A stretch of DNA of 64,000 nt from Chamaelirium japonicum (Eukaryota; Streptophyta; Magnoliopsida; Liliales; Melanthiaceae). Positions 107 to 54,335 of the stretch are shown here, piece after piece. Location of the stretch: assembly GCA_947650365.1 (NCBI GenBank), contig OX393551.1:91486697-91550696 (forward strand), given 5' to 3'. Numbering within the stretch: the first letter of the stretch is position 1; the number at the start of each line of letters is the position of its first letter. Made by a program: the position numbers and the translations under genes. The notes beneath the pieces were generated by a model that worked only from the letters and a program-made list of their open reading frames with translations, was not told the DNA's origin and searched no databases.

Positions 107-484
107 TCCTTTCTTATTTATTGTGCGAATGAATTAGAATGGATCGTACGAATGAGTAAGAATGGATCGTACGAATGAATTATAATGGATTGAATTAGAA
201 TGAATCGTACGAATGAATTAGAATGGATCGTACGAATGAATTAGAATGGATCGTACGAATGAATTAGAATGGATTGAATTAGAATGAATCGTACGAATGA
301 ATTAGAATGGATCGTACGAATGAATTAGAATGGATCGTACGAATGAATTAGAATGGATTGAATTAGAATGAATCGTACGAATGAATTAGAATGAATCATA
401 CGAATGAATTAGAATGAATCGTACGAATGAATTAGAATGGATTGAATTAGAATGAATCGTACGAATGAATTAGAATGAATCATA

Positions 485-1560
485 CGAATGAAATAAAATG
501 GATCATAATCTAATTAATTCATACGATCCATTCTAATTCATTCGCACAATCAATTCTAATTCATTCGTACGATCCATTCTAATTCATTCGCACGATCTAT
601 TCTAATTCATTCGTACGATCCATTCTAATTCATTCGCACGAATGTATCCATTCTAATTCATTCATACAATCTATTCTAATTCATTCGTACGATCCATTCT
701 AATTCATTCGTATAATCCATTCTATTTCATTCGTACGATCCATTCTTACTCATTCGTATGATCCATTCTAATTCATTCGCACGAATGTATCCATTCTAAT
801 TCATTCGTACGATCCATTCCAATTCATTCGTACGATCCATTCTAATTCATTCGTCCGATCTATTCTAATTCATTCATACGATCCATTCTAATTCAGTCAT
901 ACAATCCATTCTAATTCTTTCACACGATCCATTCTAATTCATTCATACGATCCATTCTAATTCATTCGTACGATCCATTCTAATTCATTCGCACGAATGA
1001 ATCCATTCTAATTCATTCGTACAATCCATTCTATTTCATTCGTACGATCCATTCTTACTCATTCGTAAGATCCATTCTAATTCATTGGCACGAATGTATC
1101 CGTTCTAATTCATTCGTACGATCCACTCTAATTCATTTGTACGATCCATTCCAATTCATTCTAATTCTAATTCATTCGCACGAATGTATCCATTCTAATT
1201 CATTCGTACGATCCATTCTAATTCATTCGCACAATCTATTCTAATTCATTCGTACGATCCATTCTAATTCATTCGCACGATCCATTCTAATTCATTTGCA
1301 CGATCCATTCTAATTCATTCATACAATCCATTCTAATTCTTTTGCACGAATGTATCCATTCTAATTCATTACGAATGAGTAAGAATGGATTGTACGAATG
1401 AATTAGAATGGATACATTCTTGCGAATAAATTAGAATAGATCATACGAATGAGTAAGAATGGATTGTACGAATGAAATAGAAGTGATTGTACGAATGAAT
1501 TAGAATGGATCGTGCGAATGAATTAGAATGGATCGTACGAATGAATTAGAATGGATCGTA
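485..1560 (+). repeat. Left arm of about 1-kb inverted repeat, HOR copy 1
   Basis: This segment is the reverse complement of about 3650-4690, unit by unit. Shared diagnostic features include the junction GGATCATAATCTAATT (reading AATTAGATTATGATCC in the partner) and a 28-bp unit followed by CTTACTC and CGTAAG units. TTTCACACG is mirrored as CGTGTGAAAG and CGTCCG as CGGACG. The doubled CATTCTAATTCTAATTC and the orientation switch CTAATTCATTACGAATG are also mirrored. The arm contains two orientation switches (508 and 1368), and both are mirrored. Confidence 0.85.
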
Positions 1561-1622
1561 CGAAGGAATTAGAATGAATCGTACGAATGAATTAGAATGG
1601 ATCGTACGAATGAATTAGAATG

Positions 1623-2198
1623 GATCGAATGAATGAATTAGAATGGATACATTCGTGCAAAGGAATTAGAATGGATTGTATGAATGAATTAGAATGGATC
1701 GTGCGAATGAATTAGAATGGATCGTACGAATGAATTAGAATGGATACATTCGTGCGAAAGAATTAGAATTGATCGTATGAATGAATTAGAATGTATCGTA
1801 TGAATGAAATAGAATGTATCGTACGAATGAATTAGAATGGATCGTACGAAGGAATTAGAATGGATCGTACGAATGAATTCGAATGTATCCTTTCTAATTC
1901 ATTCGTACGATCCATTCTAATTCCTTCGTACGATCCATTCTAATTCATTCGTACGATCCATTCTAATTCATTCGCATGATCCATTCTAATTCATTCGTAC
2001 GATCCATTCTATTTCATTCATACGATCCATTCTAATTCATTCATACGATCTATTCTAATTCTTTCGCATGAATGTATACATTCTAATTCATTCGTACGAT
2101 CCATTCTAATTCATTCGCACGATCCATTCTAATTCATTCATACAATCCATTCTAATTCTTTTGCACGAATGTATCCATTCTAATTCATTCGTTCGATC
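1623..2198. repeat. Foldback J, HOR copy 1
   Basis: The reverse block 1623-1870 and the forward block 1891-2198 are inverted copies that meet at the junction GAATGAATTCGAATGTATCC (1871-1890). Reading outward from the centre, both arms show a CCTTCG unit, a CTATTTCATTCATACG unit, CATACGAT followed by CTTTCGCA and a 28-bp unit, then GCACG, CATACAATCC and a TTGCACGAATG unit. Both end in the GTTCG/GAATG variant (left GATCGAATG, right CATTCGTTCGATC). The right arm has about two extra units. Confidence 0.82.
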
Positions 2199-2625
2199 CA
2201 TTCTAATTCATTCATACGATCCATTTTAATTCATTCGCACGATCCATTCTAATTCATGCATACGATCCAATCTAATTCATTCATACGACCCATTCTAATT
2301 CATTCGCACGAATGTATCCATTCTAATTCATTCGTACATATATGAATGAATTAGAATGGATCGTACGAATGAATTAGAGTTGATACATTCGTGCGAATGA
2401 ATTAGAATGGATCGTATGAATGAATTAGATTGGATCGTATGAATGAATTATAATGGATAATGCGAATAAATTAGAATAGATCATACGAATGAATTAGAAT
2501 GGATCGTACGAATGAATTAGAATGGATACATTCGTGCAAAAGAATTAGAATGGATTGTATGAAAGAATTAGAATGGATCGTGCGAATGAATTAGAATGGA
2601 TACATTCGTGCGAATGAATTAGAAT
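2050..2625. repeat. Foldback P, HOR copy 1
   Basis: The forward arm 2050-2328 and the reverse arm 2349-2625 meet at CATTCGTACATATATGAATG (2329-2348). From the centre, both arms carry a 28-bp unit and an ATTAGATTGG (CCAATCTAAT) unit. A GTGC-type unit, a TTTTGCACG/CGTGCAAAAG 28-bp unit, a CATACAATCC/GGATTGTATG unit and a second 28-bp unit follow. The right arm has one extra unit next to the centre. The left arm of P overlaps the right arm of foldback J, which gives a three-fold concertina. Confidence 0.8.
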
Positions 2626-3649
2626 GGATCGTATGAATGAATTAGATTGGATCGTATGAATGAATTAGAATGGATCGTGCGAATGAATTAGAATGGATCG
2701 TATGAATGAATTAGAATGGATCGTACGAATGAATTAGAATGGATCGTACGAATGAATTAGATTGGATCGTACAAATGAATTAGAATGGATCGTACGAAGG
2801 AATTAGAATGGATCGTATGAATGAATTAGATTGGATCGTATTAATGAATTTGAATGGATCGTATGAATGAATTAGATTGGATCGTATGAATGAATTAGAA
2901 TGGATCTTACGAATGAATTAGAATGGATCGTACGAATGAAATAGAATGGATTGTATGAAAGAATTAGAATAGATCGTGCGAATGAATTAGAATGGATCGT
3001 ACGAATGAATTAGAATGGATCATATGAATGAATTAGAATGGATCGTACGTATGAATTTGAATGGATCGTGCGAATGAATTAGAATGGATCGTATGAATGA
3101 ATTAAAGTAGATACATTCGTACGAAGGAATTAGAATGGATTGTATGAATGAATTAGAATGGATCGTATGAATGAATTAGAGTAGATACATTCGTACGAAG
3201 GAATTAGAATGGATCATACGAATGAATTAGAATGGATTATATGAATGAATTAGAATGGATCGTACAAATGAATTAGAATGGATACATTCGTGCGAATGAA
3301 TTAGAATGGATTGTACAAATAAATTAGAATGGATCGTGCGAATGAATTAGAATAGATTGTACGAATGAATTAGAATGGATCGTACGTCTAATTCATTCGT
3401 ACGATCCATTCTAATTCATTCATACAATCCATTCTACTTCTTTTGCACGAATGTATCGATTCTAATTCATTCATACGATCCATTCCAATTCCTTCGTACG
3501 ATCCATTCTAATTCCTTCATACGATCCATTCTAATTCATTCCCATGAATGTATCCATTCTAATCGATACGTACGATCCATTCTATTTCATTCGTATGAAC
3601 CATTCTTACTCATTCGTATGATCCAATCTAATTCATTCATACGATCCAT

Positions 3650-4690
3650 TCTAATTCATTCGTACGTTCCATTCTAATTTATTAGCACGATCAATGCTAA
3701 TTCATTCGTACGATCCATTCTAATTCATTCGTACAATCCATTCTATTTCATTCGTACGATCCATTCTTACTCATTCGTATGATCCATTCTAATTCATTCG
3801 CATGAATGTATCCATTCTAATTCATTCGTACAATCCATTCTTACTCATTCATAATGAATTAGAATGGATACATTCGTGCAAAAGAATTAGAATGGATTGT
3901 ATGAATGAATTAGAATGGTTCGTGCAAATGAATTAGAATGGATCGTGCGAATGAATTAGAATGGATCGTACGAATGAATTAGAATAGATTGTGCGAATGA
4001 ATTAGAATGGATCGTACGAATGAAATAGAATGGATACATTCATGCGAATGAATTAGAATTAGAATGAATTGTAATGGATCGTACGAATGAATTAGAGTGG
4101 ATCGTATGAATGAATTAGAATGGATACATTCGTGCCAATGAATTAGAATGGATCTTACGAATGAGTAAGAATGGATCGTACAAATGAAATAGAATGGATT
4201 GTACGAATGAATTAGAAAGGATTCATTCGTGTGAATGAATTAGAATGGATCGTACGATTGAATTAGAATGGATCGTGTGAAAGAATTAGAATGGATTGTA
4301 TGAATGAATTAGAATGGATCGTATGAATGAATCAGAATGGATCGGACGAATGAATTAGATTGGATCGTACGAAAGAATTAGAATGGATACATTCGTGCGA
4401 ATGAATTAGAATGGATCATACAAATGAGTAAGAATGGATCGTACGAATGAAATAGAATGGATTGTACGAATGAATTAGAATGGATCGTACGAATGAATTA
4501 GAATAGATTGTACGAATGAATTAGAATGGATACATTCGTGCGAATGAATTAGAATGGATCGTACGAATGAATTAGAATAGATCGTGCGAATGAATTAGAA
4601 TGGATCGTACGAATGAATTAGAATAGATTGTGCGAATGAATTAGAATGGATCATATGATTGAATTAGATTATGATCCATTTTATTTCATT
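3650..4690 (-). repeat. Right arm of about 1-kb inverted repeat, HOR copy 1
   Basis: It is the inverted partner of about 485-1560; the loop between the arms is about 2.1 kb and itself holds two foldbacks. The switch at 3852 (CTCATTCATAATGAATT) mirrors the one at 1368, and the switch at 4663-4669 (TTAGATTATGATCC) mirrors the one near 508. Beyond 4690 the similarity to the other arm stops. Confidence 0.85.
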
Positions 4691-5527
4691 CGTATGATCC
4701 ATTCTAATTCCTTCGTACAATCTAATTCATTCATACGATCCATTCTAATTCATTCGCACGAATGTATCCATTCAAATTCATTCGTACGATCCATTCTAAT
4801 TCATTCGCACGATCCATTCTAATTCATTCGTACGATCCATTCTAATTCATTTATACGATCCAATCTAATTCATTCATACAATCCATTCTAATTCATTTGC
4901 ACGAATTTATCCATTCTAATTCATTCGTACGATCCATTCTAATTCATTCGTACGAACCATTCTAATTCATTCGTACGATCTATTCTAATTCATTCGTACG
5001 ATCCATTCTAATTCATTTGCACGATCCATTCTAATTCATTCACACTCATACGATCCATTCTAATTCATTCGCACGAATGTATCCTTTCTGATTCATTCGT
5101 ACGATCCATTCTAATTCATTCGCACAATCTATTCTAATTCATTCGAACGATCCATTCTAAGTCATTCGTACGATCCATTCTAATTCATTCGTACGATCCA
5201 TTCTAATTCATTCGCACGATACATTCTATTTCATTCGTACGATCCATTCTAATTCATTCGCACGAATGTATCCATTCCAATTCATTCGTACGATCCATTC
5301 TAATTCATTCGCACGATCCATTCTAATTCATTCATACGATCCATTCTAATTCATTCATACGATCCATTTTAATTCATTCGAACGATCCATTCTAATTCAT
5401 TCATACGATCCATTCTAATTCATTCGTACGATCCATTCTAATTTCTTCGTATGATCTATTCTAATTCCTTCGTACGATCCATTCTAATTCCTTCGTACGA
5501 TCCATTCAAATTCTTTCGCACGAATCT

Positions 5528-5797
5528 ATTTGAATGGGTCGTACGAATGAATATGAATGAATTAGAATGGATCGTTTGAGTGAATGCGAATGGATCGTGC
5601 GAATGAATTAGAATGGATTGTACGAATGAATTAGAATGGATCGTACGAATGAATTAGAATGGATACATTCGTGCGAATCCATTCTATTTCATTCGTACGA
5701 TCCATTCTAATTCATTCGTACGATCCATTCTAATTCATTCGCACAATCTATTCTAATTCATTCGTACAATCCATTCTAATTCATTCGCACGATCGAT
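5528..5797 (-). repeat. Inverted partner of 7130-7440, HOR copy 1
   Basis: The reverse block 5528-5677 carries the GTTTGAGTGAATGCG variant, mirrored as CATTCACTCAAACG at about 7390-7410. The following forward block starts at junction CATTCGTGCGAATCC, the mirror of GGATTCGCACGAATG at about 7300. The mirroring continues on both sides of the junction, with a change in unit number on the far side. Confidence 0.78.
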
Positions 5798-6400
5798 ACG
5801 AAGAAATTAGAATGGATCGTATGAATGAATTAGAATGGATCGTATGAATGAATTAGAATGGATCGTACGAATGAATTAGAATGGATTGAATTAGAATAAA
5901 TCATACGAATGAATTAGAATGAATCATACCGTATGAATGAATTAGAATGGATCATACGAAGGGATTAGAATGGATCGTACGAATGAATTAGAATGGATCG
6001 TACGTACGAATGAATTAGAATGGATTGCATGAATGAATTAGAATAGATCGTACGAATGAATTAGAATGGATCGTACGAAATGTATCCATTCTAATTCATT
6101 CGTACGATCCATTCTAATTCATTCGTATGATCCATTCTTACTCATTCGTACGATCCAATCTAATTCATTCATACGATCCATAATAATTCATTCGTACGTT
6201 CCATTCTAATTCATTAGCACGATCAATGCTAATTCATTCGTACGATCCATTCTAATTCATTCGTACGATCCATTCTAATTCATTCGTACGATCCATTCTA
6301 ATTCCTTCGTATGATCCATTCTAATTCATTCGTACGGTATGATTCATTCTAATTCATTCGTACGATTCATTCTAATTCAATCCATTCTAATTCATTCGTA
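5797..6400. repeat. Palindromic segment with the ACCGTACG marker, HOR copy 1
   Basis: The reverse block 5797-6079 holds GGATTGAATTAG and CATACCGTATG. The forward block after 6080 holds the mirror units GTACGGTATGATTC (about 6333) and CTAATTCAATCC (about 6376). The arms lie roughly at 5810-6000 and 6260-6400, with a loop of about 260 bp. The same arrangement is seen at 15195-15790 in copy 2. Confidence 0.7.
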
Positions 6401-7129
6401 CGATTCATTCATACGATCCATTCTTACTCATTCGTACGATCCATTCTAATTCATTCGCACGATCCATTCTAATTCATCCGTACGATCCATTCTATTTCAT
6501 TCGTAGGATCCATTCTTACTCATTCGTACGATCCATTCTAATTCATTCGCACGAATGTATCCATTCTAATTCATTCGTACGATCCATTCTAATTCCTTCG
6601 TACAAACCATTCTAATTCCTGCGTACGATCCATTCTAATTATTTTGTACGACCCATTATATTTCATTCGTATGATCCATTCTAATTCCTTTGTACGATCC
6701 AGTCTAATTCATGCCCATGAATGTATCCATTCTAATTCATTTGCACGAATGTATCCATTCTAATTCATTCGTACGATCCATTCTAATTCATTCGTACGTT
6801 CCATTATAATTCATTCGTAAGATCCATTCTAATTCATTCATACGATCTATTCTAATTCATTCATACAATCCATTCTAATTCCTTCGTACGATCCATTCTA
6901 ATTCATTCATACGATCCATTCTAATTCATTCGTACTATCCATTCTTACTCATTCGTACGAAGGAATTAGAATGGATCGTACGAAGGAATTAGAATGGATA
7001 GTACGAATGAATTAGAATGGATACCTTCGTGCAAATGAATTAGAATGGATCGTACGAATGAGTAAGAATGGATCGTACAAATGAAATAGAATGGATCGTA
7101 TGAATGAATTAGAATGGATCGTGCGAATG

Positions 7130-7440
7130 AATTAGAATGGATCGTGCGAATGAATTAGAATAGATTGTGCGAATGAATTAGAATGGATCGTACGAATGAA
7201 TTAGAATGGATCGTACGAATGAATTAGAATGGATCGTACGAATGAATTAGAAAGGATCGTGCGAATGAATTAGAATGGATCGTACGAATGAAATAGAATG
7301 GATTCGCACGAATGTATCCATTCTAATTCATTCGTACGATCCATTCTAATTCATTTGTACAATCCATTCTAATTCATTCGCACGATCCATTCACATTCAC
7401 TCAAACGATTCATTCTAATTCATTCATATAATCCATTCTA
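7130..7440. repeat. Partner of the inverted segment 5528-5797, HOR copy 1
   Basis: It contains the reverse-to-forward switch GGATTCGCACGAATG at about 7300-7314, followed by GTACAATCC, GCACG and CATTCACTCAAACG units in the mirror order of 5528-5690. Confidence 0.78.
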
Positions 7441-8277
7441 ATTCATTCGTGCGAATCCATTCTATTTCATTCGTACGATCCATTCTAATTCATTCGCACG
7501 ATCAATTCTAATTCATTCATACAATCCATTCTAATTTATTTGCACGAATGTATCCATTCTAATTCATTCGTACGATCTATTCTAATTCATTCGTACGATT
7601 CATTCTAATTCATTAATACGATCCAATCGCATTCACTCAAACGATCCATTCTAATTCCTTCGTACGATCCATTCTAATTCCTTCGTACGATCCATTCTAA
7701 TTCATTCCCATGAATGTATCCATTCTAATTCTTTCGCACGAGCCATTCTAATTCATTCGCACGATCCATTCTAATTCATTCATACGATCCATTCTAATTT
7801 ATTCGTACGATCCATTCTAATTCATTCGCACGATCCATTCTAATTCATTCGCACGAATGTTTCCATTCTAATTCATTCGTATGATCCATTCTAATTCATT
7901 CACACGATCCATTCTAATTCTTTCATACAATCCATTCTATTTCTTTTGCACGAATGTATCCATTCTAATTCATTCGTACGATCCATTCTATTTCATTCGT
8001 ACGATCCATTCTAATTCATTCGTACAATCCATTCTAATTCTTTCGCACGATCTATTCGAATTCATTCGCACGAATGTATCCACTCTAATTCATTCATACG
8101 ATCCATTCTAATTCCTTCGTACGATCCATTCTATTTCATTCGTATGATCCATTCTATTTCATTCATATAATCCATTCTAATTCATTCGCACGATCCATTC
8201 TAATTCATTCATACGATCCATTCTAATTCATTCGTATGATCCATTCTAATTCATTCATACGATCCATTCTAATTCAT

Positions 8278-8720
8278 ACGAATTAGAATGGATCGTATGA
8301 GTGTGAATGAATTAGAATGGATCGTGCAAATGAATTAGAATGGATCGTATTAATGAATTAGAATGGATCGTGCGAATGAATTAGAATGGATCGTACGAAA
8401 TTCTAATTCATTCGCATGAATGTATCCATTCTAATTCATTCGTACGATCCATTCTAATTCATTCGCACAATCTATTCTAATTCATTCATACGATCCATTC
8501 TAATTTATTCGCACGTTCCATTCTAATTCATTCATACGATCCATTCTTATTCATTCATATGATCCATTCTAATTCATTCGCACGATCCATTCTTACTCAT
8601 TCGTACGATCCATTCTAATTCATTCGCACGATCCATTCTAATTCATTAATATGATCCATTCTAATTCATTCGCACGATCCATTCTAATTCATTCACACTC
8701 ATACGATCCATTCTAATTCA
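8278..8720. repeat. Short inverted pair 8278-8398 / 8600-8720, HOR copy 1
   Basis: The short reverse block carries GTATGAGTGTGAATG, a GTGC unit and a GTATTAATG unit. The mirror order occurs downstream as GCACG, CATTAATATG and CATTCACACTCATACG. The left switch is a hairpin: CCATTCTAATTC, loop ATAC, then GAATTAGAATGG. Copy 2 has the same pair at 17306-17427 and 17628-17735. Confidence 0.78.
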
Positions 8721-9532
8721 TTCGCATGAATATATCCTTTCTAATTCATTCGTACGATCCATTCTAATTCATTCGCACAATCTATTCTAATTCATTCTTA
8801 CGATCCATTCTAATTTATTCACACGATCCATTCTAATTCATCCATACGATCTATTCTAATTTATTCATATGATCCATTCTAATTCATTCGCACGATCCAT
8901 TCTTACTCATTCGTACGATCCATTCTAATTCATTCGCACGATCCATTCTAATTCATTAATACGATCCATTCTAATTCATTCGTACGATCCATTCTAATTC
9001 ATTCGTATGATCCATTCTAATTCATTCGTACGGTATGATTCATTCTAATTCATTCGTACGATCCATTCTAATTCAATCCATTCTAATTCATTCGTACGAT
9101 CCATTCTAATTCATTCGTACGATCCATTCTAATTCATTCGTACGATTCATTCTAATTCAATCCATTCTAATTCATTCGTAGGATCCATTCTTACTCATTC
9201 GTACGATCCATTCTAATTCATTCACACGAATGAATCCATTCTAATTCATTCGTATGATCCATTCTAATTCATTCATACGATCCATTCTAATTCATTCATA
9301 TGATCCATTCTAATTCATTCGCACGATCCTTTCTTATTTATTGAGCGAATGAATTAGAATGGATCGTACGAATGAGTAAGAATGGATCGTACGAATGAAT
9401 TATAATGGATTGAATTAGAATGAATCGTACGAATGAATTAGAATGGATCGTACGAATGAATTAGAATGGATCGTACGAATGAATTAGAATGGATTGAATT
9501 AGAATGAATAGTACGAATGAATTAGAATGAAT

Positions 9533-10650
9533 CATACGAATGAAATAAAATGGATCATAATCTAATTCATTCATACGATCCATTCTAATTCATTCGCACA
9601 ATCTATTCTAATTCATTCGTACGATCCATTCTAATTCATTCGCACGATCTATTCTAATTCATTCGTACGATCCATTCTAATTCATTCGCACGAATGTATC
9701 CATTGTAATTCATTCATACAATCTATTCTAATTCATTCGTACGATCCATTCTAATTCATTCGTACAATCCATTCTATTTCATTCGTACGATCCATTCTTA
9801 CTCATTCGTATGATCCATTCTAATTCATTCACACGACTGTATCCATTCTAATTCATTCGTACGATCCATTCTAATTCATTCGTACGATCCATTCTAATTC
9901 ATTCGTCCGATCCATTCTAATTCATTCGTACGATCCATTCTAATTCATTCGTCCGATCCATTCTAATTCATTCATACGATCCATTCTAATTCATTCATAC
10001 AGTCCATTCTAATTCTTTCACACGATCCATTCTAATTCATTCGTACGATCCATTCTAATTCATTCGTACGATCCATTCTAATTCATTCGCACGAATGAAT
10101 CCATTCTAATTCATTCGTACAATCCATTCTATTTCATTCGTACGATCCATTCTTACTCATTCGTAAGATCCATTCTAATTCATTGGCACGAATGTATCCA
10201 TTCTAATTCATTCGTACGATCCACTCTAATTCATTTGTACGATCCATTCCAATTCATTCTAATTCGAATTCATTCGCACGAATGTATCCATTCTAATTCA
10301 TTCGTACGATCCATTCTAATTCATTCGCACAATCTATTCTAATTCATTCGTACGATCCATTCTAATTCATTCGCATGATCCATTCTAATTCATTTGCACG
10401 ATCCATTCTAATTCATTCATACAATCCATTCTAATTCTTTTGCATGAATTTATCCATTCTAATTCATTACGAATGAGTAAGAATGGATTGTACGAATGAA
10501 TTAGAATGGATACATTCGTGCGAATGAATTAGAATGGATCATACGAATGAGTAAGAATGGATCGTACGAATGAAATAGAATGGATTGTACGAATGAATTA
10601 GAATGGATAGTGCGAATGAATTAGAATGGATCGTACGAATGAATTAGAAT
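9533..10650 (+). repeat. Left arm of about 1-kb inverted repeat, HOR copy 2
   Basis: Equivalent to 485-1560 in copy 1, with the same marker order (AATAAAATGGATCATAATC, CACGACTG, CGTCCG, TTTCACACG, CGTAAG, CATTACGAATGAG). It is inverted relative to about 12965-14050. Preservation of the pair in successive HOR copies shows that the inverted duplication predates HOR amplification. Confidence 0.8.
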
Positions 10651-10721
10651 GGATCGTACGAAGGAATTAGAATGGATCGTACGAATGAATTAGAATGGAT
10701 CGTACGAATTAATTAGAATGG

Positions 10722-11300
10722 ATCAAACGAATGAATTAAAATAGATACATTTGTGCAAAGGAATTAGAATGGATTGTATGAATTAATTAGAATGGATCGT
10801 GCGAATGAATTAGAATGGATCGTACAAATGAATTAGAATGGATACATTCGTGCGAAAGAATTAGAATAGATCGTATGAATGAATTAGAATGGATCGTATG
10901 AATGAAATAGAATGGATCGTACGAATGAATTAGAATGGATCGTACGAAGGAATTAGAATGGATCGTACGAATGAATTCGAATGTATCCTTTCTAATTCAT
11001 TCGTACGATCCATTCTAATTCCTTCGTACGATCCATTCTAATTCATTCGTACGATCCATTCTAATTCATTCGCACGATCCATCCTAATTCATTCGTACGA
11101 TCCATTCTATTTCATTCATACGATCCATTCTAATTCATTCATACGATCTATTCTAATTCTTTCGCACGAATATATACATTCTAATTCATTCGTACGATCC
11201 ATTCTATTTTATTCGCACGATCCATTCTAATTCATTCAAACAATCCATTCTAATTCTTTTGCACGAATGTATCCATTCTAATTCATTCGTTCGATCCATT
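10722..11300. repeat. Foldback J, HOR copy 2
   Basis: Same arrangement as at 1623-2198, centred on GAATGAATTCGAATGTATCC at 10969-10988. The outer ends are GATCAAACGAATG on the left and CATTCGTTCGATCC on the right. Confidence 0.8.
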
Positions 11301-11730
11301 CTAATTCATTCGTACGATCCATTCTAATTCATTCGCACGATCCATTCTAATTCATGCATACGATCCAATCTAATTCATTCATACGATCCATTCTAATTCA
11401 TTCGCACGAATATATCCATTCTAATTCATTCGTACATGTATGAATGAATTAGAATGGATCGTACGAATGAATTAGAGTTGATACATTCGTGCGAATGAAT
11501 TAGAATGGATCGTACGAATGAATTAGATTGGATCGTATGAATGAATTATAATGGCTCATGCGAATGAATTAGAATAGATCATACGAATAAATTAGAATGG
11601 ATCGTACGAATGAATTAGAATGGATACATTCGTGCAAAAGAATTAGAATGGATTGTATGAATGAATTAGAATGGATCGTGCGAATGAATTAGAATGGATA
11701 CATTCGTGCGAATGAATTAGAATGGATCGT
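11148..11730. repeat. Foldback P, HOR copy 2
   Basis: Centre CATTCGTACATGTATGAATG at 11427-11446, with the same arm structure as copy 1. One CpG-type transition (TAC to TAT) separates this 20-mer from a perfect palindrome. Confidence 0.8.
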
Positions 11731-11751
11731 ACGAATGAATTAGAATGGATC

Positions 11752-12000
11752 GTATGAATTAGAATGGATCGTACGAAGGAATTAGAATGGATCGTATGAA
11801 TGAATTAGATTGGATCGTATTAATGAATTTGAATGGATCGTATGAATGAATTAGATTGGATCGTATGAATGAATTAGAATGGATCTTACGAATGAATTAG
11901 AATGGATCATACGAATGAAATAGAATGGATTGTATGAATGAATTAGAATAGATCGTGCGAATGAATTAGAATGGATCGTACGAATGAATTAGAATGGATC
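11752..12000 (-). repeat. 249-bp tandem duplication in HOR copy 2, first copy
   Basis: This stretch starts at GTATGAATTAGAATGGATCG and is repeated immediately downstream. I compared the two copies base by base and found no difference over 249 bp. It is 11 monomers, one of them short by 4 bp. HOR copies 1 (near 2800) and 3 (near 20768) carry the segment once. Confidence 0.95.
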
Positions 12001-12249
12001 GTATGAATTAGAATGGATCGTACGAAGGAATTAGAATGGATCGTATGAATGAATTAGATTGGATCGTATTAATGAATTTGAATGGATCGTATGAATGAAT
12101 TAGATTGGATCGTATGAATGAATTAGAATGGATCTTACGAATGAATTAGAATGGATCATACGAATGAAATAGAATGGATTGTATGAATGAATTAGAATAG
12201 ATCGTGCGAATGAATTAGAATGGATCGTACGAATGAATTAGAATGGATC
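12001..12249 (-). repeat. 249-bp tandem duplication in HOR copy 2, second copy
   Basis: Identical to 11752-12000 and then continues into the sequence expected from copies 1 and 3. Identity this complete, against visible divergence between HOR copies, marks it as one of the youngest events in the window. Confidence 0.95.
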
Positions 12250-12964
12250 ATATGAATGAATTAGAATGGATCGTACGTATGAATTAGAATGGATCGTGCG
12301 AATGAATTAGAATGGATCTTATGAATGAATTAGAGTAGATACATTCGTACGAAGGAATTAGAATGGATCGTACGAATGAATTAGAATGGATTATATGAAT
12401 GAATTAGAATGGATCGTACGAATGAATTAGAATGGATCGTACGAATGAATTAGAATGGATCGTGTGAAAGAATTAGAATGGATTGTATGAATGAATTAGA
12501 ATGGATCGTATGAATGAATTAGAGTAGATACATTCGTACGAAGGAATTAGAATGGATCGTACGAATGAATTAGAATGGATACATTCGTGCGAATAAATTA
12601 GAATGGATTGTACGAATAAATTAGAATGGATCGTACGAATGAATTAGAATAGATTGTACGAATGAATTAGAATGGATCGTACGTCTAATTCATTCGTACG
12701 ATCCATTCTAATTCATTCATACAATCCATTCTACTTCTTTTGCACGAATGTATCCATTCTAATTCATTCATACGATCCATTCTAATTCCTTCATACGATC
12801 CATTCTAATTCCTTCGTACGATCCATTCTAATTCATTCCCATGAATGTATCCATTCTAATTGATACGTACGATCCATTCTATTTCATTCGTATGATCCAT
12901 TCTTACTCATTCGTACGATCCAAATTAATTTATTCATACGATCCATTCTACGATCCATTCTAAT

Positions 12965-14050
12965 TCATTCGTACGTTCCATTCTAATTCATTAGCACGAT
13001 CAATGCTAATTCATTCGTACGATCCATTCTAATTCATTCGTACAATCCATTCTATTTCATTCGTACGATCCATTCTTACTCATTCGTATGATCCATTCTA
13101 ATTCATTCGCACGAATGTATCCATTCTAATTCATTCGTACAATCCATTCTTACTCATTCGTAATGAATTCGAATGGATACATTCGTGCAAAAGAATTAGA
13201 ATGGATTGTATGAATGAATTAGAATGGATCGTGCAAATGAATTAGAATGGATCGTGCGAATGAATTAGAATGGATCGTACGAATGAATTAGAATAGATTG
13301 TGTGAATGAATTAGAATGGATCGTACGAATGAATTAGAATGGATACATTCGTGCGAATGAATTAAAATTAGAATGAATTGGAATGGATCGTACGAATGAA
13401 TTAGAGTGGATCGTATGAATGAATTAGAATGGATACATTCGTGCCAATGAATTAGAATGGATCTTACGAATGAGTAAGAATGGATCGTACAAATGAAATA
13501 GAATGGATTGTATGAATGAATTAGAATGGATTCATTCGTGTGAATGAATTAGAATAGATCGTACGAATGAATTAGAATGGATCGTACGAATGAATTAGAA
13601 TGGATCGTGTGAAAGAATTAGAATGGATTATATGAATGAATTAGAATGGATCGTATGAATGAATTAGAATGGATCGGACGAATGAATTAGATTGGATCGT
13701 ACGAATGAATTAGAATGGATCGTACGAATGAATTAGAATGGATACATTCGTGCGAATGAATTAGAATGGATCATACAAATGAGTAAGAATGGATCGTACG
13801 AATGAAATAGAATGGATTGTACGAATGAATTAGAATGGATCGTACGAATGAATTAGAATAGATTGTATGAATGAATTAGAATGGATACATTCGTGCGAAT
13901 GAATTAGAATGGATCGTACGAATGAATTAGAATAGATCGTGCGAATGAATTAGAATGGATCGTACGAATGAATTAGAATAGATTGTGCGAATGAATTAGA
14001 ATGGATCGTATAAATGAATTAGATTATGACCCATTTTATTTCATTCGTAT
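12965..14050 (-). repeat. Right arm of about 1-kb inverted repeat, HOR copy 2
   Basis: Inverted partner of about 9533-10650. It begins in the AGCACGATCAATGC units, crosses the TAATGAATTC switch at 13161 and ends at TTAGATTATGACCC (about 14025). Confidence 0.8.
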
Positions 14051-14862
14051 GATCCATTCTAATTCCTTCGTACAATCTAATTCATTCATACGATCCATTC
14101 TAATTCATTCGCACGAATGTATCCATTCTAATTCATTCGCACGATCCATTCTAATTCATTCATACGATCCATTCTAATTCATTTATACGATCCAATCTAA
14201 TTCATTCATACAATCCATTCTAATTCATTTGCACGAATTTATCCATTCTAATTCATTCGTACGATCCATTCTAATTCATTCGCACAATCTATTCTAATTC
14301 ATTCGTACGATCCATTCTAATTCATTCGTACGATCCATTCTAATTCATTCGCACGATCCATTCTAATTCATTCACACTCATACGATCCATTCTAATTCAT
14401 TCGTACGAATGTATCCTTTCTAATTCATTCGTACGATCCATTCTAATTCATTCGCACAATCTATTCTAATTCATTCGAACGATCCATTCTAAGTCATTCC
14501 TACGATCCATTCTAATTCATTCGTACGATCCATTCTAATTCATTCGCACGATACATTCTATTTCATTCGTACGATCCATTCTATTTCATTCGCACGAATG
14601 TATCCATTCCAATTCATTCGTACGATCCATTCTAATTCATTCGCACGATCCATTCTAATTCGTTCATACGATCCATTCTAATTCATTCATACAATCCATT
14701 TTAATTCATTCGCACGATCCATTCTAATTCATTCATACGATCTATTCTAATTCATTCGTACGATCCAATCTAATTTCTTCGTATGATCTATTCTAATTCC
14801 TTCGTACGATCCATTCTAATTCCTTCGTACGATCCATTCAAATTCATTCGCACGAATCTATT

Positions 14863-15196
14863 TGAATGGGTCGTACGAATGAATATGAATGAATTAGAAT
14901 GGATCATTTGAGTGAATGCGAATGGATCGTGCGAATGAATTAGAATGGATTGTACGAATGAATTAGAATGGATCGTACGAATGAATTAGAATGGATACAT
15001 TCGTGCGAATCCATTCTATTTCATTCGTACGATCCATTCTAATTCATTCGCACGATCCATTCTAATTCATTCATACGATCCATTCTAATTCATTCGTACG
15101 ATCCATTCTAATTCATTCGTACGATCCATTCTAATTCATTCGCACAATCTATTCTAATTAATTCGTACGATCCATTCTAATTCATTCGCACGATCG
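14863..15196. repeat. Inverted partner of 16208-16470, HOR copy 2
   Basis: Counterpart of 5528-5797. It carries CATTTGAGTGAATGCG and the junction CATTCGTGCGAATCC near 14998-15012, which mirror the CATTCACTCAAACG unit and the GGATTTGCACGAATG junction of 16325-16470. Confidence 0.75.
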
Positions 15197-18100
15197 ATAC
15201 GAGGAAATTAGAATGGATCGTACGAATGAATTAGAATGGATCGTATGAATGAATTAGAATGGATCGTACGAATGAATTAGAATGGATTGAATTAGAATGA
15301 ATCGTACGAATGAATTAGAATGAATCATACCGTACGAATGAATTAGAATGGATCATACGAAGGGATTAGAATGGATCGTACGAATGAATTAGAATGGATC
15401 GTACGTACGAATGAATTAGAATGGATTGCATGAATGAATTAGAATAGATCGTACTAATGAATTAGAATGGATCGTACGAAATGTATCCATTCTAATTCAT
15501 TCGTACGATCCATTCTAATTCATTCGTATTTTCCATTCTTACTCATTCGTACGATCCAATCTAATTCATTCATATGATCCATTCTAATTCATTCGTACGT
15601 TCCATTCTAATTCATTAGCACGATCAATGCTAATTCATTCGTACGATCCCTTCTAATTCATTCGTACGATCCATTCTAATTCCTTCGTATGATCCATTCT
15701 AATTCATTCGTACGGTATGATTCATTCTAATTCATTCGTACGATTCATTCTAATTCAATCCATTCTAATTCATTCGTACGATTCATTCATACGATCCATT
15801 CTTACTCATTCGTACGATCCATTCTAATTCATTCGCACGATCCATTCTAATTCATCCGTACGATCCATTCTATTTCATTCGTAGGATCCATTCTTACTCA
15901 TTCGTACGATCCATTCTAATTCATTCGCACGAATGTATCCATTCTAATTCATTCGTACGATCCATTCTAATTCCTTCGTACAAACCATTCTAATTCCTGC
16001 GTACGATCCATTGTAATTCCTTTGTACGACCCATTATATTTCATTCGTATGATCCATTCTAATTCCTTTGTACGATCCAGTCTAATTCATGCCCATGAAT
16101 GTATCCATTCAAATTCATTTGCACGAATGTATCCATTCTAATTCATTCGTACGATCCATTCTAATTCATTCATACTTTTCATTCTAATTCATTCGCACGA
16201 TCCATTAGAATGGATCATACGAATGAAATAGAATGGATCGTACGAATGAATTAGAATGGATCGTACGAATGAATTAGAATGGATCGTGCGAATGAATTAG
16301 AATGGATCGTACGAATGAAATAAAATGGATTTGCACGAATGTATCCATTCTAATTCATTCGTACGATCCATTCTAATTCATTCGTACAATCCATTCTAAT
16401 TCATTCGCATGATCCATTCGTATTCACTCAAACGATCCATTCTAATTCATTCATATGATCCATTCTAATTCATTCGTGCGAATCCATTCTATTTCATTCG
16501 TACGATCCATTCTAATTCATTCGCACGATCAATTCTAATTCATTCATACGATCCATTCTAATTCATTTGCACGAATGTATCCATTCTAATTCATTCGTAC
16601 GATCTATTCTAATTCATTCGTACGATCCATTCTAATTCATCAATACGATCCAATCGCATTCACTCAAACGATCCATTCTAATTCCTTCATACGATCCATT
16701 CTAATTCCTTCGTACGATCCATTCTAATTCATTCCCATGAATATATCCATTCTAACTCATTCGCACGATCCATTCTAATTCATTCGCACGATCCATTCTA
16801 ATTCATTCATACGATCCATTCTAATTCATTCGTACGATCCATTCTAATTCATTCGCACGATCCATTCTAATTCATTCGCACGAATGTATCCATTCTAATT
16901 CATTCGTATGATCCATTCTAATTCAGTCACACGATCCATTCTAATTCATTCATACAATCCATTCTATTTCTTTTGCACGAATGTATCCGTTCTAATTCAT
17001 TCGTACGATCCATTCTATTTCATTCGTACGATCCATTCTAATTCATTCGTACAATCCATTCTAATTCATTCGCACGATCTATTCGAATTCATTCGCACGA
17101 ATGTATCCACTCTAATTCATTCATACGATCCATTCTAATTCCTTCGTACGATCCATTCTATTTCATTCGTATGATCCATTCTATTTCATTCATATAATCC
17201 ATTCTAATTTATTCGCACGATCCATTCTAATTCATTCATACGATCCATTCTAATTCATTCGTATGATCCATTCCAATTCATTCATACGATCCATTCTAAT
17301 TCATACGAATTAGAATGGATCGTATGAGTGTGAATGAATTAGAATGGATCGTGCGAATGAATTAGAATGGATCGTATTAATGAATTAGAATGGATCGTGC
17401 GAATGAATTAGAATGGATCGTACGAAATTCTAATTCATTCGCACGAATGTATCCATTCTAATTCATTCGTACGATCCATTCTAATTCATTCGCACAATCT
17501 ATTCTAATTCATTCATACGATCCATTCTAATTTATTCGCACGATCCATTCTAATTCATTCATACGATCCATTCTTATTCATTCATATAATCCATTCTAAT
17601 TCATTCGCACGATCCATTCTTACTCATTCGTACGATCCATTCTAATTCATTCGCACGATCCATTCTAATTCATTAATACGATCCATTCTAATTCATTCGC
17701 ACGATCTATTCTAATTCATTCAAACTCATACGATCCATTCTAATTCATTCGCACGAATGTATCCTTTCTAATTCATTCGTACGATCCATTCTAATTCATT
17801 CGCACAATCTATTCTAATTCATTCTTACGATCCATTCTAATTTATTCGCATGATCCATTCTAATTCATTCATACGATCCATTCTAATTCATTCATATGAT
17901 ACATTCTAATTCATTCGCACGATCCATTCTTACTCATTCGTACGATCCATTCTAATTCATTCGCACGATCCATTCTAATTCATTAATACGATCCATTCTA
18001 ATTCATTCGTACGATCCATTCTAATTCCTTCGTATGATCCATTCTAATTCATTCGTACGGTATGATTCATTCTAATTCATTCGTACGATTCATTCTAATT

Positions 18101-18534
18101 CAATCCATTCTAATTCATTCGTACGATCCATTCTAATTCATTCGTACGATTCATTCTAATTCAATCCATTCTAATTCATTCGTACGATCCATTCTTACTC
18201 ATTCGTACGATCCATTCTAATTCATTCGCACGAATGAATCCATTCTAATTCATTCGTATGATCCATTCTAATTCATTCATACGATCCATTCTAATTCATT
18301 CATATGATCCATTCTAATACATTCGCACGATCCTTTCTTATTTATTGTGCGAATGAATTAGAATGGATCGTACGAATGAGTAAGAATGGATCGTACGAAT
18401 GAATTATAATGGATTGAATTAGAATGAATCGTACGAATGAATTAGAATGGATCGTACGAATGAATTAGAATGGATCGTACGAATGAATTAGAATGGATTG
18501 AATTAGAATGAATCATACGAATGAATTAGAATGA

Positions 18535-19540
18535 ATCATACGAATGAAATAAAATGGATCATAATCTAATTCATTCATACGATCCATTCTAATTCATTCG
18601 CACAATCTATACTAATTCATTCGTACGATCCATTCTAATTCATTCGCACGATCTATTCTAATTCATTCGTACGATCCGTTCTAATTCATTCGGACGAATG
18701 TATCCATTCTAATTCATTCATACAATCTATTCTAATTCATTCGTACGATCCATTCTAATTCATTCGTACAATCCATTCCATTTCATTCGTACGATCCATT
18801 CTTACTCATTCGTATGATCCATTCTAATTCATTTGCACGAATGTATCCATTCTAATTCATTCGTACGATCCATTCTAATTCATTCGTCCGATCCATTCTA
18901 ATTCATTCATACAATCCATTCTAATTCATTCATACAATCCATTCTAATTCTTTCACACGATCCATTCTAATTCATTCGTACGATCCATTCTAATTCATTC
19001 GTACGATCCATTCTAATTCATTCGCACGAATGAATCCATTCTAATTCATTCGTATAATCCATTCTATTTCATTTGTACGATCTATTCTTACTCATTCGTA
19101 AGATCCATTCTAATTCATTAGCACGAATGTATCCATTCTAATTCATTTGTACGATCCACTCTAATTCATTTGTACGATCCATTCCAATTCATTCTAATTC
19201 TAATTCATTTGTACGATCCATTCCAATTCATTCTAATTCTAATTCATTCGCACGAATGTATCCATTCTAATTCATTCGTACGATCCATTCTAATTCATTC
19301 GCACAATCTATTCTAATTCATTCGTATGATCCATTCTAATTCATTCGCACGATCCATTCTAATTCATTTGCACGATCCATTCTAATTCATTCATACAATC
19401 CATTCTAATTCTTTTGCACGAATGTATCCATTCTAATTCATTACGAATGAGTAAGAATGGATTGTACGAATGAATTAGAATGGATACATTCGTGCAAAAG
19501 AATGGATTGTACGAATGAATTAGAATGGATCGTGCGAATG
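18535..19540 (+). repeat. Left arm of about 1-kb inverted repeat, HOR copy 3
   Basis: Equivalent to the left arm in copies 1 and 2. It carries an extra duplicated TTCCAATTCATTCTAATTC segment near 19165-19240 and a deletion just after the switch at 19442. It pairs with about 21790-22855, and part of it also pairs with 24335-25135. Confidence 0.8.
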
Positions 19541-19644
19541 AATTAGAATGGATCGTACGAATGAATTAGAATGGATCGTACGAAGGAATTAGAATGGATC
19601 GTACGAATGAATTAGAATGGATCGTACGAATGAATTAGAATGGA

Positions 19645-20222
19645 TCGAACGAATGAATTAGAATGGATACATTCGTGCAAAAGAATTAGAATGGATTGTA
19701 TGAATGAATTAGAATGGATCGTGCGAATGAATTAGAATGGATCGTACGAATGAATTAGAATGGATACATTCGTGCGAAAGAATTAGAATAGATCGTATGA
19801 ATGAATTAGAATGGATCGTATGAATGAAATAGAATGGATCGTACGAATGAATTAGAATGGATCGTACGAAGGAATTAGAATGGATCGTACGAATGAATTC
19901 GAATGTATCCTTTCTAATTCATTCGTACGATCCATTCTAATTCCTTCGTACGATCCATTCTAATTCATTCATACGATCCATTCTAATTCATTCACACGAT
20001 CCATTCTAATTCATTCGTATGATCCATTCTATTTCATTCATACGATCCATTCTAATTCATTCATACGATCTATTCTAATTCTTTTGCACGAATGTATACA
20101 TTCTAATTCATTCGTACGATCCATTCTAATTCATTCGCACGATCCATTCTAATTCATTCATACAATCCATTCTAATTCTTTTGCACGAATGTATCCATTC
20201 TAATTCATTCGTTCGATCCATT
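19645..20222. repeat. Foldback J, HOR copy 3
   Basis: Centre at 19891-19910. The outermost variant units are exact reverse complements here (GATCGAACGAATG on the left, CATTCGTTCGATC on the right), which makes this the clearest of the three copies. Confidence 0.82.
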
Positions 20223-20645
20223 CTAATTCATTCGTACGATCCATTCTAATTCATTCGCACGATCCATTCTAATTCATGCATACGATCCAATCTAATTCAT
20301 TCATACGATCCATTCTAATTCATTCGCACGAATGTATCCATTCTAATTCATTCGTACATGTATGAATGAATTAGAATGGATCGTACGAATGAATTAGAGT
20401 TGATACATTCGTGCGAATGAATTAGAATGGATCGTACGAATGAATTAGATTGGATCGTATGAATGAATTATAATGGATCATGCGAATGAATTAGAATAGA
20501 TCATACAAATGAATTAGAATGGATCGTACGAATGAATTAGAATGGATACATTCGTGCAAAAGAATTAGAATGGATTGTATGAATGAAATAGAATGGATCG
20601 TGCGAATGAATTAGAATGGATACATTCGTGTGAATGAATTAGAAT
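20070..20645. repeat. Foldback P, HOR copy 3
   Basis: Centre CATTCGTACATGTATGAATG at 20349-20368, arms as in copies 1 and 2. Confidence 0.8.
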
Positions 20646-21789
20646 GGATCGTATGAATGAATTAGATTGGATCGTATGAATGAATTAGAATGGATCGTGC
20701 GAATGAATTAGAATGGATCGTACGAATGAATTAGAATGAATCGTACGAATGAATTAGAATGGATCGTATGAATTAGAATGGATCGTACGAAGAAATTAGA
20801 ATGGATCGTATGAATGAATTAGATTGGATCGTATTAATGAATTTGAATGGATCGTATGAATGAATTAGATTGGATCGTATGAATGAATTAGAATGGATCT
20901 TACGAATGAATTAGAATGGATCGTACGAATGAAATAGAATGGATTGTATGAATGAATTAGAATAGATCGTGCGAATGAATTAGAATGGATCGTACAAATG
21001 AATTAGAATGGATCATATGAATGAATTAGAATGGATCGTACGTATGAATTAGAATGGATCTTGCGAATGAATTAGAATGGATCGTATGAATGAATTAGAG
21101 TAGATACATTCGTACGAAGGAATTAGAATGGATCGTACGAATGAATTAGAATGGATTATATGAATGAATTAGAAAGGATCATACAAATGAATTAGAATGG
21201 ATCGTACGACTGAATTAGAATGGATCGTGTGAAAGAATTAGAATGGATTGTGTGAATGAATTAGAATGGATCGTATGAATGAATTAGAGTAGATATATTC
21301 GTACGAAGGAATTAGAATGGATCGTTCGAATGAATTAGAATGGATTATATGAATGAATTAGAATGGATCGTATGAATGAATTAGAATGGATACATTCGTG
21401 CGAATGAATTAGAATGGATTGTACGAATAAATTAGAATGGATCGTACGAATGAATTAAAATAGATTGTACGAATGAATTAGAATGGATCGTACGTCTAAT
21501 TCATTCGTACGATCCATTCTAATTCATTCATACAATCCATTCTACTTCTTTTGCACGAATGTATCCATTCTAATTCATTCATACGATCCATTCTAATTCC
21601 TTCGTACGATCCATTCTAATTCCTTCGTACGATCCATTCTAATTCATTCCCATGAATGTATCCATTCTAATTGATACGTACGATCCATTCTATTTCATTC
21701 GTATGATCCATTCTTACTCATTCGTACGATCCAATCTAATTCATTCATACGATCCATTCTACGATCCATTCTAATTCATTCGTACGTTC

Positions 21790-22855
21790 CATTCTAATTC
21801 ATTAGCACGATCAATGCTAATTCATTCGTATGATACATTCTAATTCATTCGTACAATCCATTCTATTTCATTCGTACGATCCATTCTTACTCATTAGTAT
21901 GATCCATTCTAATTCATTCGCACGAATGTATCCATTCTAATTCATTCGTACAATCCATTCTTACTCTTTCGTAATGAATTAGAATGGATACATTCGTGCA
22001 AAAGAATTAGAATGGATTGTATGAATGAATTAGAATGGATCGTGCAAATGAATTAGAATGGATCGTGCGAATGAATTAGAATGGATCGTACGAATGAATT
22101 AGAATAGATTGTGCGAATGAATTAGAATGGATCGTACGAATGAATTAGAATGGATACATTCGTGCGAATGAATTAGAATTAGAATGAATTGGAATGGATC
22201 GTACGAATGAATTAGAGTGGATCGTTTGAATGAATTAGAATGGATACATTCGTGCCAATGAATTAGAATGGATCTTACGAATGAGTAAGAATGGATCGTA
22301 CAAATGAAATAGAATGGATAGTACGAATGAATTAGAATGGATTCATTCGTGCGAATGAATTAGAATGGATCGTACGAATGAATTAGAATGGATCGTACGA
22401 ATGAATTAGAATGGATCGTGTGAAAGAATTAGAATGGATTGTATGAATGAATTAGAATGGATCGTATGAATGAATTAGAATGGATCGGACGAATGAATTA
22501 GATTGGATCGTACGAATGAATTAGAATGGATCGTACGAATGAATTAGAATGGATACATTCGTGCGAATGAATTAGAATGGATCATACAAATGAGTAAGAA
22601 TGGATCGTACGAATGAAATAGAATGGATTGTACGAATGAATTAGAATGGATCGTAAGAATGAATTAGAATAGATTGTATGAATGAATTAGAATGGATACA
22701 TTCGTGCGAATGAATTAGAATGGATCGTACGAATGAATTAGAATAGATCGTGCGAATGAATTAGAATGGATCGTACGAATGAATTAGAATAGATTGTGCG
22801 AATGAATTAGAATGGATCGTATGAATGAATTAGATTATGATCCATTTTATTTCAT
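21790..22855 (-). repeat. Right arm of about 1-kb inverted repeat, HOR copy 3
   Basis: Inverted partner of 18535-19540. It includes the switch GTAATGAATT at 21971 and ends at TTAGATTATGATCC near 22832-22845. Confidence 0.8.
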
Positions 22856-23449
22856 TCGTATGATCCATTCTAATTCCTTTGTACAATCTAATTCATTCAT
22901 ACGATCCATTCTAATTCATTCGCACGAATGTTTCCATTCAAATTTATTCGTACGATCCATTCTAATTCATTCGCACGATCCATTCTAATTCATTCGTACG
23001 ATCAATTCTAATTCATTTATAAGATCCAATCTAATTCATTCATACAATCCATTCTAATTCATTTGCACGAATTTATCCATTCTAATTCATTCGTACGGTC
23101 CATTCTAATTCATTCGTACGGTCCATTCTAATTCATTCGTACGATCCATTCTAATTCATTCGCACGATCCATTCTAATTCATTCACACTCATACGATCCA
23201 TTCTAATTCATTCGCACAAATGTATCCTTTCTAATTCATTCGTACGATCCATTCTAATTCATTCGCACAATCTATTCTAATTCATTCGAACGATCCATTC
23301 TAAGTCATTCGTACGATCCATTCTAATTCATTCGTACGATCCATTCTTATTCATTCGCACGATCCATTCTATTTCATTCGTACGATCCATTCTAATTCAT
23401 TCGCACGAATGTATCCATTCCAATTCATTCGTACGATCCATTCTAATTC

Positions 23450-24334
23450 ATTCGCACAATCTATTCTAATTCATTCGTACGATCAATTCTAATTCATTCG
23501 CTCGTATCCATTCTAATTCATTCATACGATCCATTCTATTTCATTCATACGATCCATTCTTACTCATTCGTACGATCCATTCTAATTCATTCGTACGATC
23601 CATTCTAATTCATTCGCACAATCTATTCTAATTCATTCGTACGATCCATTCTAATTCATTCGCACGATCAATTCTAATTCATTCATACGATCCATTCTAT
23701 TTCATTCGTACGATCCATTCTTACTCATTCGTACGATCCATTCTAATTCATTTGCACGAAGGTATCCATTCTAATTCATTCGTACTATCCATTCTAATTC
23801 CTTCGTACGATCCATTCTAATTCCTTCGTACGATCCATTCTAATTCATTCGTACGATCCATTCTAATTCATTCGTACGATCCATTCTAATTCCTTCGTAT
23901 GAATGAATTAGAATCGATCGTACGAATGAATTAGAATGGATCCATTCTAATTCATTTGCACGAAGGTATCCATTTAATTAGAATGGATCGTGCGAATGAA
24001 TTAGAATGGATCGTACGAATGAATTAGAATGGATCGTATGAATGAATTAAAATGGATCGTAGTAATGAATTAGAATGGATCCTAGGAATGAATTAGAATA
24101 GATTGTGCGAATAAATTAGAATGGATCTGGATCGTGTATCCATTCTAATTCATTCGTACGACCCATTCTAATTCATTCGCACGATCCATTCTAATTCATT
24201 CGTACGATCTAGTCTATTTCATTCGTACAATCCATTGTAATTCATTCATACGATCCAATCTAATTCATTCATACGATCCATTCTAATTCATTCGTACGAT
24301 CTATTCTATTTCATTCATACGATCCATTCTCATT
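23450..24334. repeat. Transition from the 9-kb HOR domain to the mosaic domain
   Basis: HOR order is lost near 23450. A forward stretch of common units follows, then three orientation changes within about 80 bp (23898, 23942, 23977). A reverse block runs to about 24135 and a forward block carries module X. The 35-45 bp blocks near 23898-23977 are the shortest in the window and mark a rearrangement hot spot. Confidence 0.7.
24119..24333 (+). repeat. Module X, direct copy 1 (short)
   Basis: It opens with the junction GATCTGGATCGTGTATCC (24119-24141 with its flanks), then GTACGACCC, GCACG, a GATCTAGTCTATTTC unit, CATACGATCCAATC and GATCTATTCTATTTC. It is cut at CATTCTCATTCGTGCC near 24330. Confidence 0.75.
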
Positions 24335-25135
24335 CGTGCCAATGAATTAGAATGGATCTTACGAATGAGTAAGAATGGATCGTACGAATGAAATAGAATG
24401 GATTGTACGAATGAATTAGAATGGATTCATTCGTGCGAATGAATTAGAATGGATCGTACGAATGAACTAGAATGGATCGTACGAATGAATTAGAATGGAT
24501 CGTGTGAAAGAATTAAAATGGATTGTATGAATGAATTAGAATGGATCGTATGAATGAATTAGAATGGATCGGACGAATGAATTAGAATGGATCGTACGAA
24601 TGAATTAGAATGGATCGTACGAATGAATTAGAATGGATACATTCGTGCGAATGAATTAGAATGGATCATAAGAATGAGTAAGAATGGATCGTACGAATGA
24701 AATAGAATGGATTGTACGAATGAATTAGAATGGATCGTACGAATGAATTAGAATAGATTGTATGAATGAATTAGAATGGATAAATTCGTGCGAATGAATT
24801 AGAATGCATCGTACGAATGAATTAGAATAGATCGTGCGAATGAATTAGAATGGATCGTACGAATGAATTAGAATAGATTGTGCGAATGAATTAGAATGGA
24901 TCGTATGAATGAATTAGATTATGATCCATTTTATTTCATTCGTATGATTCATTCTAATTCATTCGTACGATTCATTCTAATTCAATCCATTCTAATTCAT
25001 TCGTATGATCCATTCTACTTCATTCGTACGGTCCATTCTAATTCATTCGTACGATTCATTCTAATTCAATCCATTATAATTCATTCGTACGATCCATTCT
25101 TACTCATTCGTACGATCCATTCTAATTCATTCGCA
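24335..25135. repeat. Inverted copy of an HOR segment (18350-19105 equivalent), about 800 bp
   Basis: This block reads as the reverse complement of the start of an HOR. It runs from the CGTGCCAATG/CTTACG units through CGTGTGAAAG, CGGACG and TTAGATTATGATCC into CATTCGTATGATTC and CTAATTCAATCC. It ends with the mirror of GATTATAATGGATTGAATTAG-type units at about 25065-25085. The segment continues past 24945, where the HOR right arm (22855) stops, so it derives from the left-arm side and not from 22250-22855. Confidence 0.78.
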
Positions 25136-54320: not shown

Positions 54321-54335
54321 GAATTAGAATGGATC

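Follow-up and report, generated by a model that had tools for sequence, protein, structure and literature searches.

Many of the orientation switches in the satellite array described here are copied from a restricted number of founder junctions, blocks that carry these junctions lie in the array in either orientation, and a 4.2-kb mirror module of the same array is also present on scaffold C2 and, in both orientations, in another unit of scaffold C3. We consider it probable that the array was shaped by the copying of founder junctions together with an exchange of blocks, irrespective of their orientation, between centromere units of the satellite Chio. The stretch of DNA analysed (64 kb; the window) corresponds to C3:91,486,697-91,550,696, C3 being contig OX393551.1, within a genome of 1.52 Gb.

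The satellite and its higher-order units

A 23-bp satellite fills the window from end to end (TRF) and alternates in orientation in 101 runs. It was found at all points sampled between C3:90.49 and 92.05 Mb and was absent from the sampled points at C3:89.49 and 92.55 Mb. A two-form satellite model covers 93.8% of the bases and places 131 switches in 84 kb (the window and its flanks), a density of about 1.5 per kb. The two monomer forms derived from the window, of 23 and 28 bp, are distinguished by 5 bp and a single substitution, exactly the difference published for Chio1 and Chio2 (PMC10264360). These satellites of Chionographis japonica are described as 23 and 28 bp in length, enriched in CENH3 and forming megabase CENH3-positive units in which forward and reverse arrays are mixed; their monomers carry dyads, the role of which is given as unknown (PMC10264360), and Chio higher-order repeats have also been published. 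The mixed orientation and the megabase scale are both found here, in the 131 switches and in the sampled points, and the window is filled with the motif TTCGTACGA, the 9-bp motif reported as common to the Chio and Chama satellites (PMC12722358). The initial annotation had not recognized this short-unit satellite; judged by its sequence, it fits Chio1/Chio2, the holocentromere satellite of C. japonica, and we identify it as such, the array (23- and 28-bp forms) occupying positions 1-64,000 in both orientations. The window is most likely part of a megabase centromere unit of this holocentric plant. An Rfam scan of the window returned no matches.

Self-BLAST offsets resolve three higher-order units with approximate boundaries, all on the forward strand: unit 1 (294-9345, about 9.05 kb), unit 2 (9346-18,349, about 9.0 kb) and a truncated unit 3 (18,350-23,667), the direct match of which stops near 23,667. 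The higher-order repeat of about 9 kb that had been proposed is thus recovered in three units, but its spacing is not constant (offsets of 9027-9401 from unit 1 to unit 2 and of 8802-9027 from unit 2 to unit 3) and its third unit is incomplete. Just past the truncation, positions 24,331-25,302 hold an inverted copy of 128-1096, the start of unit 1 (94.1% over 982 columns). Mirror blocks also occur outside the 9-kb units: 46,808-49,515 is paired in inverted orientation with 61,289-64,000 (46,808-47,772 with 63,031-64,000 at 97.8%, and 47,852-49,515 with 61,289-62,959 at 95.5%), and 52,887-53,533 is paired across a short spacer with 53,702-54,343 on the reverse strand (94.3%). Among repeats of at least 95% identity and at least 250 bp, 54 are direct and 57 inverted in the 84 kb, and 10 are direct and nine inverted outside the 9-kb units (28,001-64,000).

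Elsewhere in the assembly, CCCTAAA repeats stand at the start of C3, and 59 small unplaced contigs (the first being C514:7679-9022) give equally scoring complete matches to COX1, with no stops under the standard code; they are probably mitochondrial sequence that the assembly kept as separate contigs.

The mirror arms and the order of events

Within unit 1, the left arm (A1; 485-1560, forward) and the reverse complement of the right arm (B1; 3650-4690, reverse) agree at 993 of the 1028 bases aligned (96.6%). The pair recurs in unit 2, where A2 (9533-10,650, forward) matches the reverse complement of B2 (12,965-14,050, reverse) at 97.5% over 1071 aligned columns, and in unit 3, where A3 (18,535-19,540, forward) matches that of B3 (21,790-22,855, reverse) at 97.5% over 958. 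In the alignment of unit 1, the variants TTTCACACG, CGTCCG, CGTAAG and a doubled CTAATTCTAATTC follow one another in the same order in both arms, and both orientation switches (near 507/4669 and 1371/3854) are kept; three gaps, each roughly a monomer long, distinguish the arms (near 804, 942 and 1521), and past about 1560 the similarity of the arms drops to the satellite background. The alignment scored 929. Shuffling the order of monomers within orientation blocks 500 times gave 680.9 ± 16.7 with a maximum of 748, and 816 overlapping reverse-complemented windows outside the three unit places gave a mean of 450.5 and a best score of 734.5 (90.3% identity), while the best of 816 same-strand windows reached 754 (90.7%); the control windows were unmatched in orientation pattern, and the shuffle is the stricter control. 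The mirroring of the arms unit by unit, with rare variants and both switches, and its two recurrences had been noted in the initial annotation, and both observations are upheld, every control lying far below the observed pair. The data support the arms being an inverted duplicate of one block in which the order of variants was kept.

The relative age of this duplication can be approached from an alignment of all six arms. Six SNPs of the pattern AAA/BBB split the left arms from the right arms (split support 0.977) and zero SNPs group the arms by unit, and because of this the 9-kb amplification is most likely the later event and the inverted duplication the earlier one. Private SNPs are more numerous than diagnostic ones, so the amplification would have followed soon after the duplication. 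The gaps speak against the split: four gap columns unite A1 with B1, and 23 gap columns, amounting to one monomer, are common to A3 and B1. The proposed sequence of a kilobase inverted duplication and a subsequent 9-kb amplification therefore holds for the SNPs, with these shared gaps running counter to it. Conversion between the arms of one unit was also considered and rejected, with zero supporting SNPs, although the four gap columns shared by A1 and B1 could fit it.

Arms of this kind, the present pair included, could be produced by a local fold-back, by an inverted copy arriving from elsewhere or by a flip after direct duplication. In a fold-back, a broken end or stalled fork would anneal to itself at short inverted motifs and be copied in the reverse direction, the 2.1-kb spacer being the loop, with transfer to other units a separate and later event. 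The arms and spacer match the fold-back signature published for human inverted duplications (PMC3907307), which likewise combine an inverted copy with a spacer but are large rearrangements in patients and not satellite DNA. A smaller structure of the same form lies between the arms, where 1488-1885 (forward) matches 1936-2338 (reverse) at 93.5% over 403 columns, giving two inner arms, each about 400 bp long, around a spacer of about 51 bp, with equivalents in units 2 and 3; the dyads published for the Chio monomer (PMC10264360) likewise speak for a fold-back. The breakpoint that a fold-back should leave is unreadable here because the inner edges of the arms sit in ordinary satellite, and we regard this origin as possible but rather unlikely.

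Founder junctions of the orientation switches

Orientation and phase were decoded in the 84 kb of continuous sequence and in four 10-kb pieces from other units, which yielded 170 junctions. All but one, dropped for a short flank, were clustered, and piece L027 (C8:27,000,001-27,010,000) was left out; this piece is the edge of another array, in which satellite is mixed with other sequence and the model fits poorly (87.4% of bases). With the middle threshold, the 169 junctions were sorted into 40 clusters (other thresholds gave 34, 52 and 58); 17 of the 40 hold a single junction, and both orientations are present in 11 of the 12 largest. Four junctions were searched for as exact sequences. J1 (5661-5695, forward; 35 bp), the commonest of them, occurs in the window at 5661, 14,993, 31,710, 39,842 and 42,868 on the forward strand and at 7285 on the reverse, and J2 (1866-1900, forward) occurs five times forward and three times reverse. 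J3 (490-515, forward) is the outer switch of the arms and lies at 490, 9542 and 18,546 (forward) and at 4662, 22,828, 24,912, 40,902 and 48,073 (reverse). J4 (1361-1390, forward), the inner switch, lies at 1361, 10,459, 19,433 and 32,838, all forward; none of its exact copies in the window is reverse, and near-identical reverse copies cluster at 3854, 13,163 and 21,974.

An exact search of the genome found 11,123 copies of J1 in the form with the linked variant CTATTT (5646 forward and 5477 reverse) and 335 with the common CTAATT (133 and 202), together with 1881 forward and 1817 reverse copies of J2, 315 and 294 of J3, and 329 and 357 of J4. Because the CTATTT-linked form makes up 97% of the two forms, the J1 copies fit descent from one copied founder. 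Recurrent breakage at one hot spot was weighed as a source of J1 alone and rejected, the CTATTT form outnumbering the consensus form by 11,123 to 335. The genome-wide balance of strands is weak evidence because the orientation of scaffolds is arbitrary. Within one unit of 0.69 Mb (C2:1.65-2.34 Mb), the matches listed comprise 84 forward and 73 reverse copies of J1 in 70 orientation runs, against 79.1 ± 6.3 after shuffling (P = 0.083). That this unit might be polarized, with J1 all forward, was discarded once a reverse-complement search showed reverse sites interleaved.

The bases shared at the 40 distinct junctions average 1.55 (range 0-7), compared with 0.65 for 1499 synthetic joins (an earlier and less fair null gave 0.75), and 15 of the 40 share none. 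This fits joining by little homology, and the slight excess is also what a fold-back would lead one to expect. The idea that breaks fall strictly at the monomer dyad was rejected, since the shared bases are barely above the null and 15 of the 40 junctions have none. A recurring switch beside the A-run variant CACGAAAAAACACG was also observed at window positions 27,131 and 57,303 and near 6680 in piece L009, and is likely another founder junction.

In a selective reading, mirror blocks would be kept because their hairpins or cruciforms aid the loading of CENH3. The authors of the work on the beetle Tribolium madens so interpret conserved inversion sites in its satellites (PMC13081366), and dyads are on record for Chio itself, albeit with an unknown role (PMC10264360). 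The founder junctions are unevenly represented, with exact copies numbering from 609 to 11,123 (in patterns of unequal length), which is also compatible with neutral copying, and selection appears improbable to us as the cause.

Module copies in distant units and the spread of the satellite

Three distant places of the module were picked by their J3 (and J4) sites in the layout of the window, and these are the distant copies examined. Their similarity to the window is expected because they were chosen by this layout, and the relationships among the copies are the informative part. Compared with window positions 300-4900, the copy on C2 is 97.7% identical in direct orientation (4551 columns), and the two on C3 are 97.4% identical in direct orientation (4408 columns) and 96.4% identical in inverted orientation (4536 columns; about 20 Mb away); the two C3 copies match each other in inverted orientation at 99.4% of 4841. 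Fifteen unrelated blocks of 4.7 kb averaged 89.6%, with a best value of 93.5%. Unit 2 is nearest to the two C3 copies (98.6%, compared with 98.2% to unit 3 and 97.6% to unit 1), unit 3 is nearest to the C2 copy (98.5%) and unit 1 is nearest to unit 3 (97.8%). The tree joins unit 2 to the two copies on C3 (support 1.000, 21 SNPs) and unit 3 to the one on C2 (support 0.945, eight SNPs). The purely local history of satellite growth that had been proposed is not supported by these results: units elsewhere contain the module, in either orientation, and it is with these distant copies, not with each other, that units 2 and 3 have their closer similarity. The assignment to another unit hinges on the scaffolding, because satellite contigs were placed by Hi-C.

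These copies also bear on the origin of the arms. Fold-back alone offers no explanation for inverted copies separated by 1.4 Mb or placed on a different scaffold. A direct duplication of a block, with one copy later flipped by a crossover within satellite blocks of opposite orientation, would preserve the order of variants and both switches equally well, and inverted homologous blocks are plentiful; a weak argument against it is that the arms are inverted in six of the six module copies (three in the window and three distant), a copy with direct arms never being seen among them, and we judge this route unlikely.

It is most improbable that the mirror pair is an assembly artefact, created by misjoined contigs or by reads that were folded or chimeric. 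The assembly does exceed the 1C value (1526 versus 1368 Mb; PMC10264360), and a larger mirror on C3 (71.51-73.06 Mb) may consist of two haplotype contigs placed head to head, but the arms of the pair diverge by about 3% with fixed differences, lie within 4.2 kb of sequence without N and recur three times in the window as well as in the three distant copies. In the larger mirror, which may alternatively be a true giant inverted repeat, the J3 spacings of C3:71,514,753-71,987,028 and 72,580,023-73,055,885 are mirrored in inverted order over about 475 kb, with chains of seven gaps (for four gaps, the null expectation is 0.017 inverted matches on average), and a sampled pair shows 99.4% identity in inverted orientation. 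Among the 64 markers listed for C3:70.6-73.07 Mb, six head-to-head J3 pairs stand 3.8-4.5 kb apart, where orientation shuffles predict 1.77 (P = 0.0016); two of these pairs correspond to each other across the 475-kb mirror.

The four 10-kb pieces from other units were selected by similarity to window positions 509-1000. No long block common to them and the window array was found, the longest match being 493 bp at an identity of at least 92%, and a single match in total reaches at least 95% over at least 250 bp. Exchange of long blocks is accordingly shown for some units only, because these pieces share just short blocks with the array. Inverted repeats of at least 92% and at least 400 bp are present in two of the four pieces and direct ones in three.

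Under the preferred reading of founder-junction copying and orientation-blind exchange, new switches would be rare events, at breaks where the joined ends share 0-7 bp, and blocks of kilobases or more would then be copied by ectopic recombination that ignores orientation. Locally, an inverted duplication would have given the 1-kb arms, tandem amplification the unit of about 9 kb, and longer blocks would likely then have been exchanged with other units; gene conversion, break-induced replication and reinsertion of circular DNA are candidate routes of copying.

Part of this picture has precedents. The mixed orientation of Chio has been published (PMC10264360), as have kilobase mirror arrays with conserved inversion sites in a beetle (PMC13081366). 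These macro-dyads of TmSat1 and TmSat2 in T. madens, likely centromeric satellites, resemble the window in their inverted subarrays of several kilobases and conserved inversion sites, both of which are found here. They are described as based on a repeat of about 110 bp with predominantly two subarrays per array (PMC13081366), whereas the window has a 23-bp repeat in 101 runs over 64 kb, with numerous founder junctions and with mirror arms that lie within a tandemly repeated unit of about 9 kb. The Chama satellite of Chamaelirium luteum, from the sister genus, shares the motif and large centromeric higher-order arrays with Chio, but is reported to have a 60-bp monomer and arrays consistently in one orientation (PMC12722358). 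Mirror blocks with the order of variants kept, founder junctions and a closer kinship of distant than of neighbouring units were not found in the two Chio papers (PMC10264360, PMC12722358), supplements aside, and the word 'inverted' is absent from the main text of the former; no further primary paper on Chionographis with Chio1 was found outside subscription journals. New here are the reading of switches as copies of founder junctions and the presence of the mirror module in distant units with a kinship closer than that of neighbours.

How a satellite came to build about 100 centromere units in this plant is stated to be unknown (PMC12722358), and non-allelic gene conversion and circular DNA have been proposed (PMC12722358, PMC10264360). 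The orientation-blind copying that we infer agrees with these ideas of the authors and adds to them the indifference to orientation and the scale of the blocks. Block exchange is hard to trace in a satellite that runs one way; switch junctions that carry linked variants are infrequent and also report the strand, and with such markers an assembly therefore suffices to measure copying between units, its direction and the length of the blocks. The mirror module offers a natural test case for the role of long inverted repeats in centromere chromatin, and mirror blocks shared with distant centromeres are a record of how such repeats spread. Tentatively, and with more doubt than confidence, we suggest that blocks ranging from kilobases up to hundreds of kilobases may pass between Chio units regardless of orientation or chromosome, with founder junctions serving as heritable tags; such copying would have seeded and homogenized the units of the holocentromere, and the transition from a monocentric to a holocentric state may be traceable from one junction to the next.
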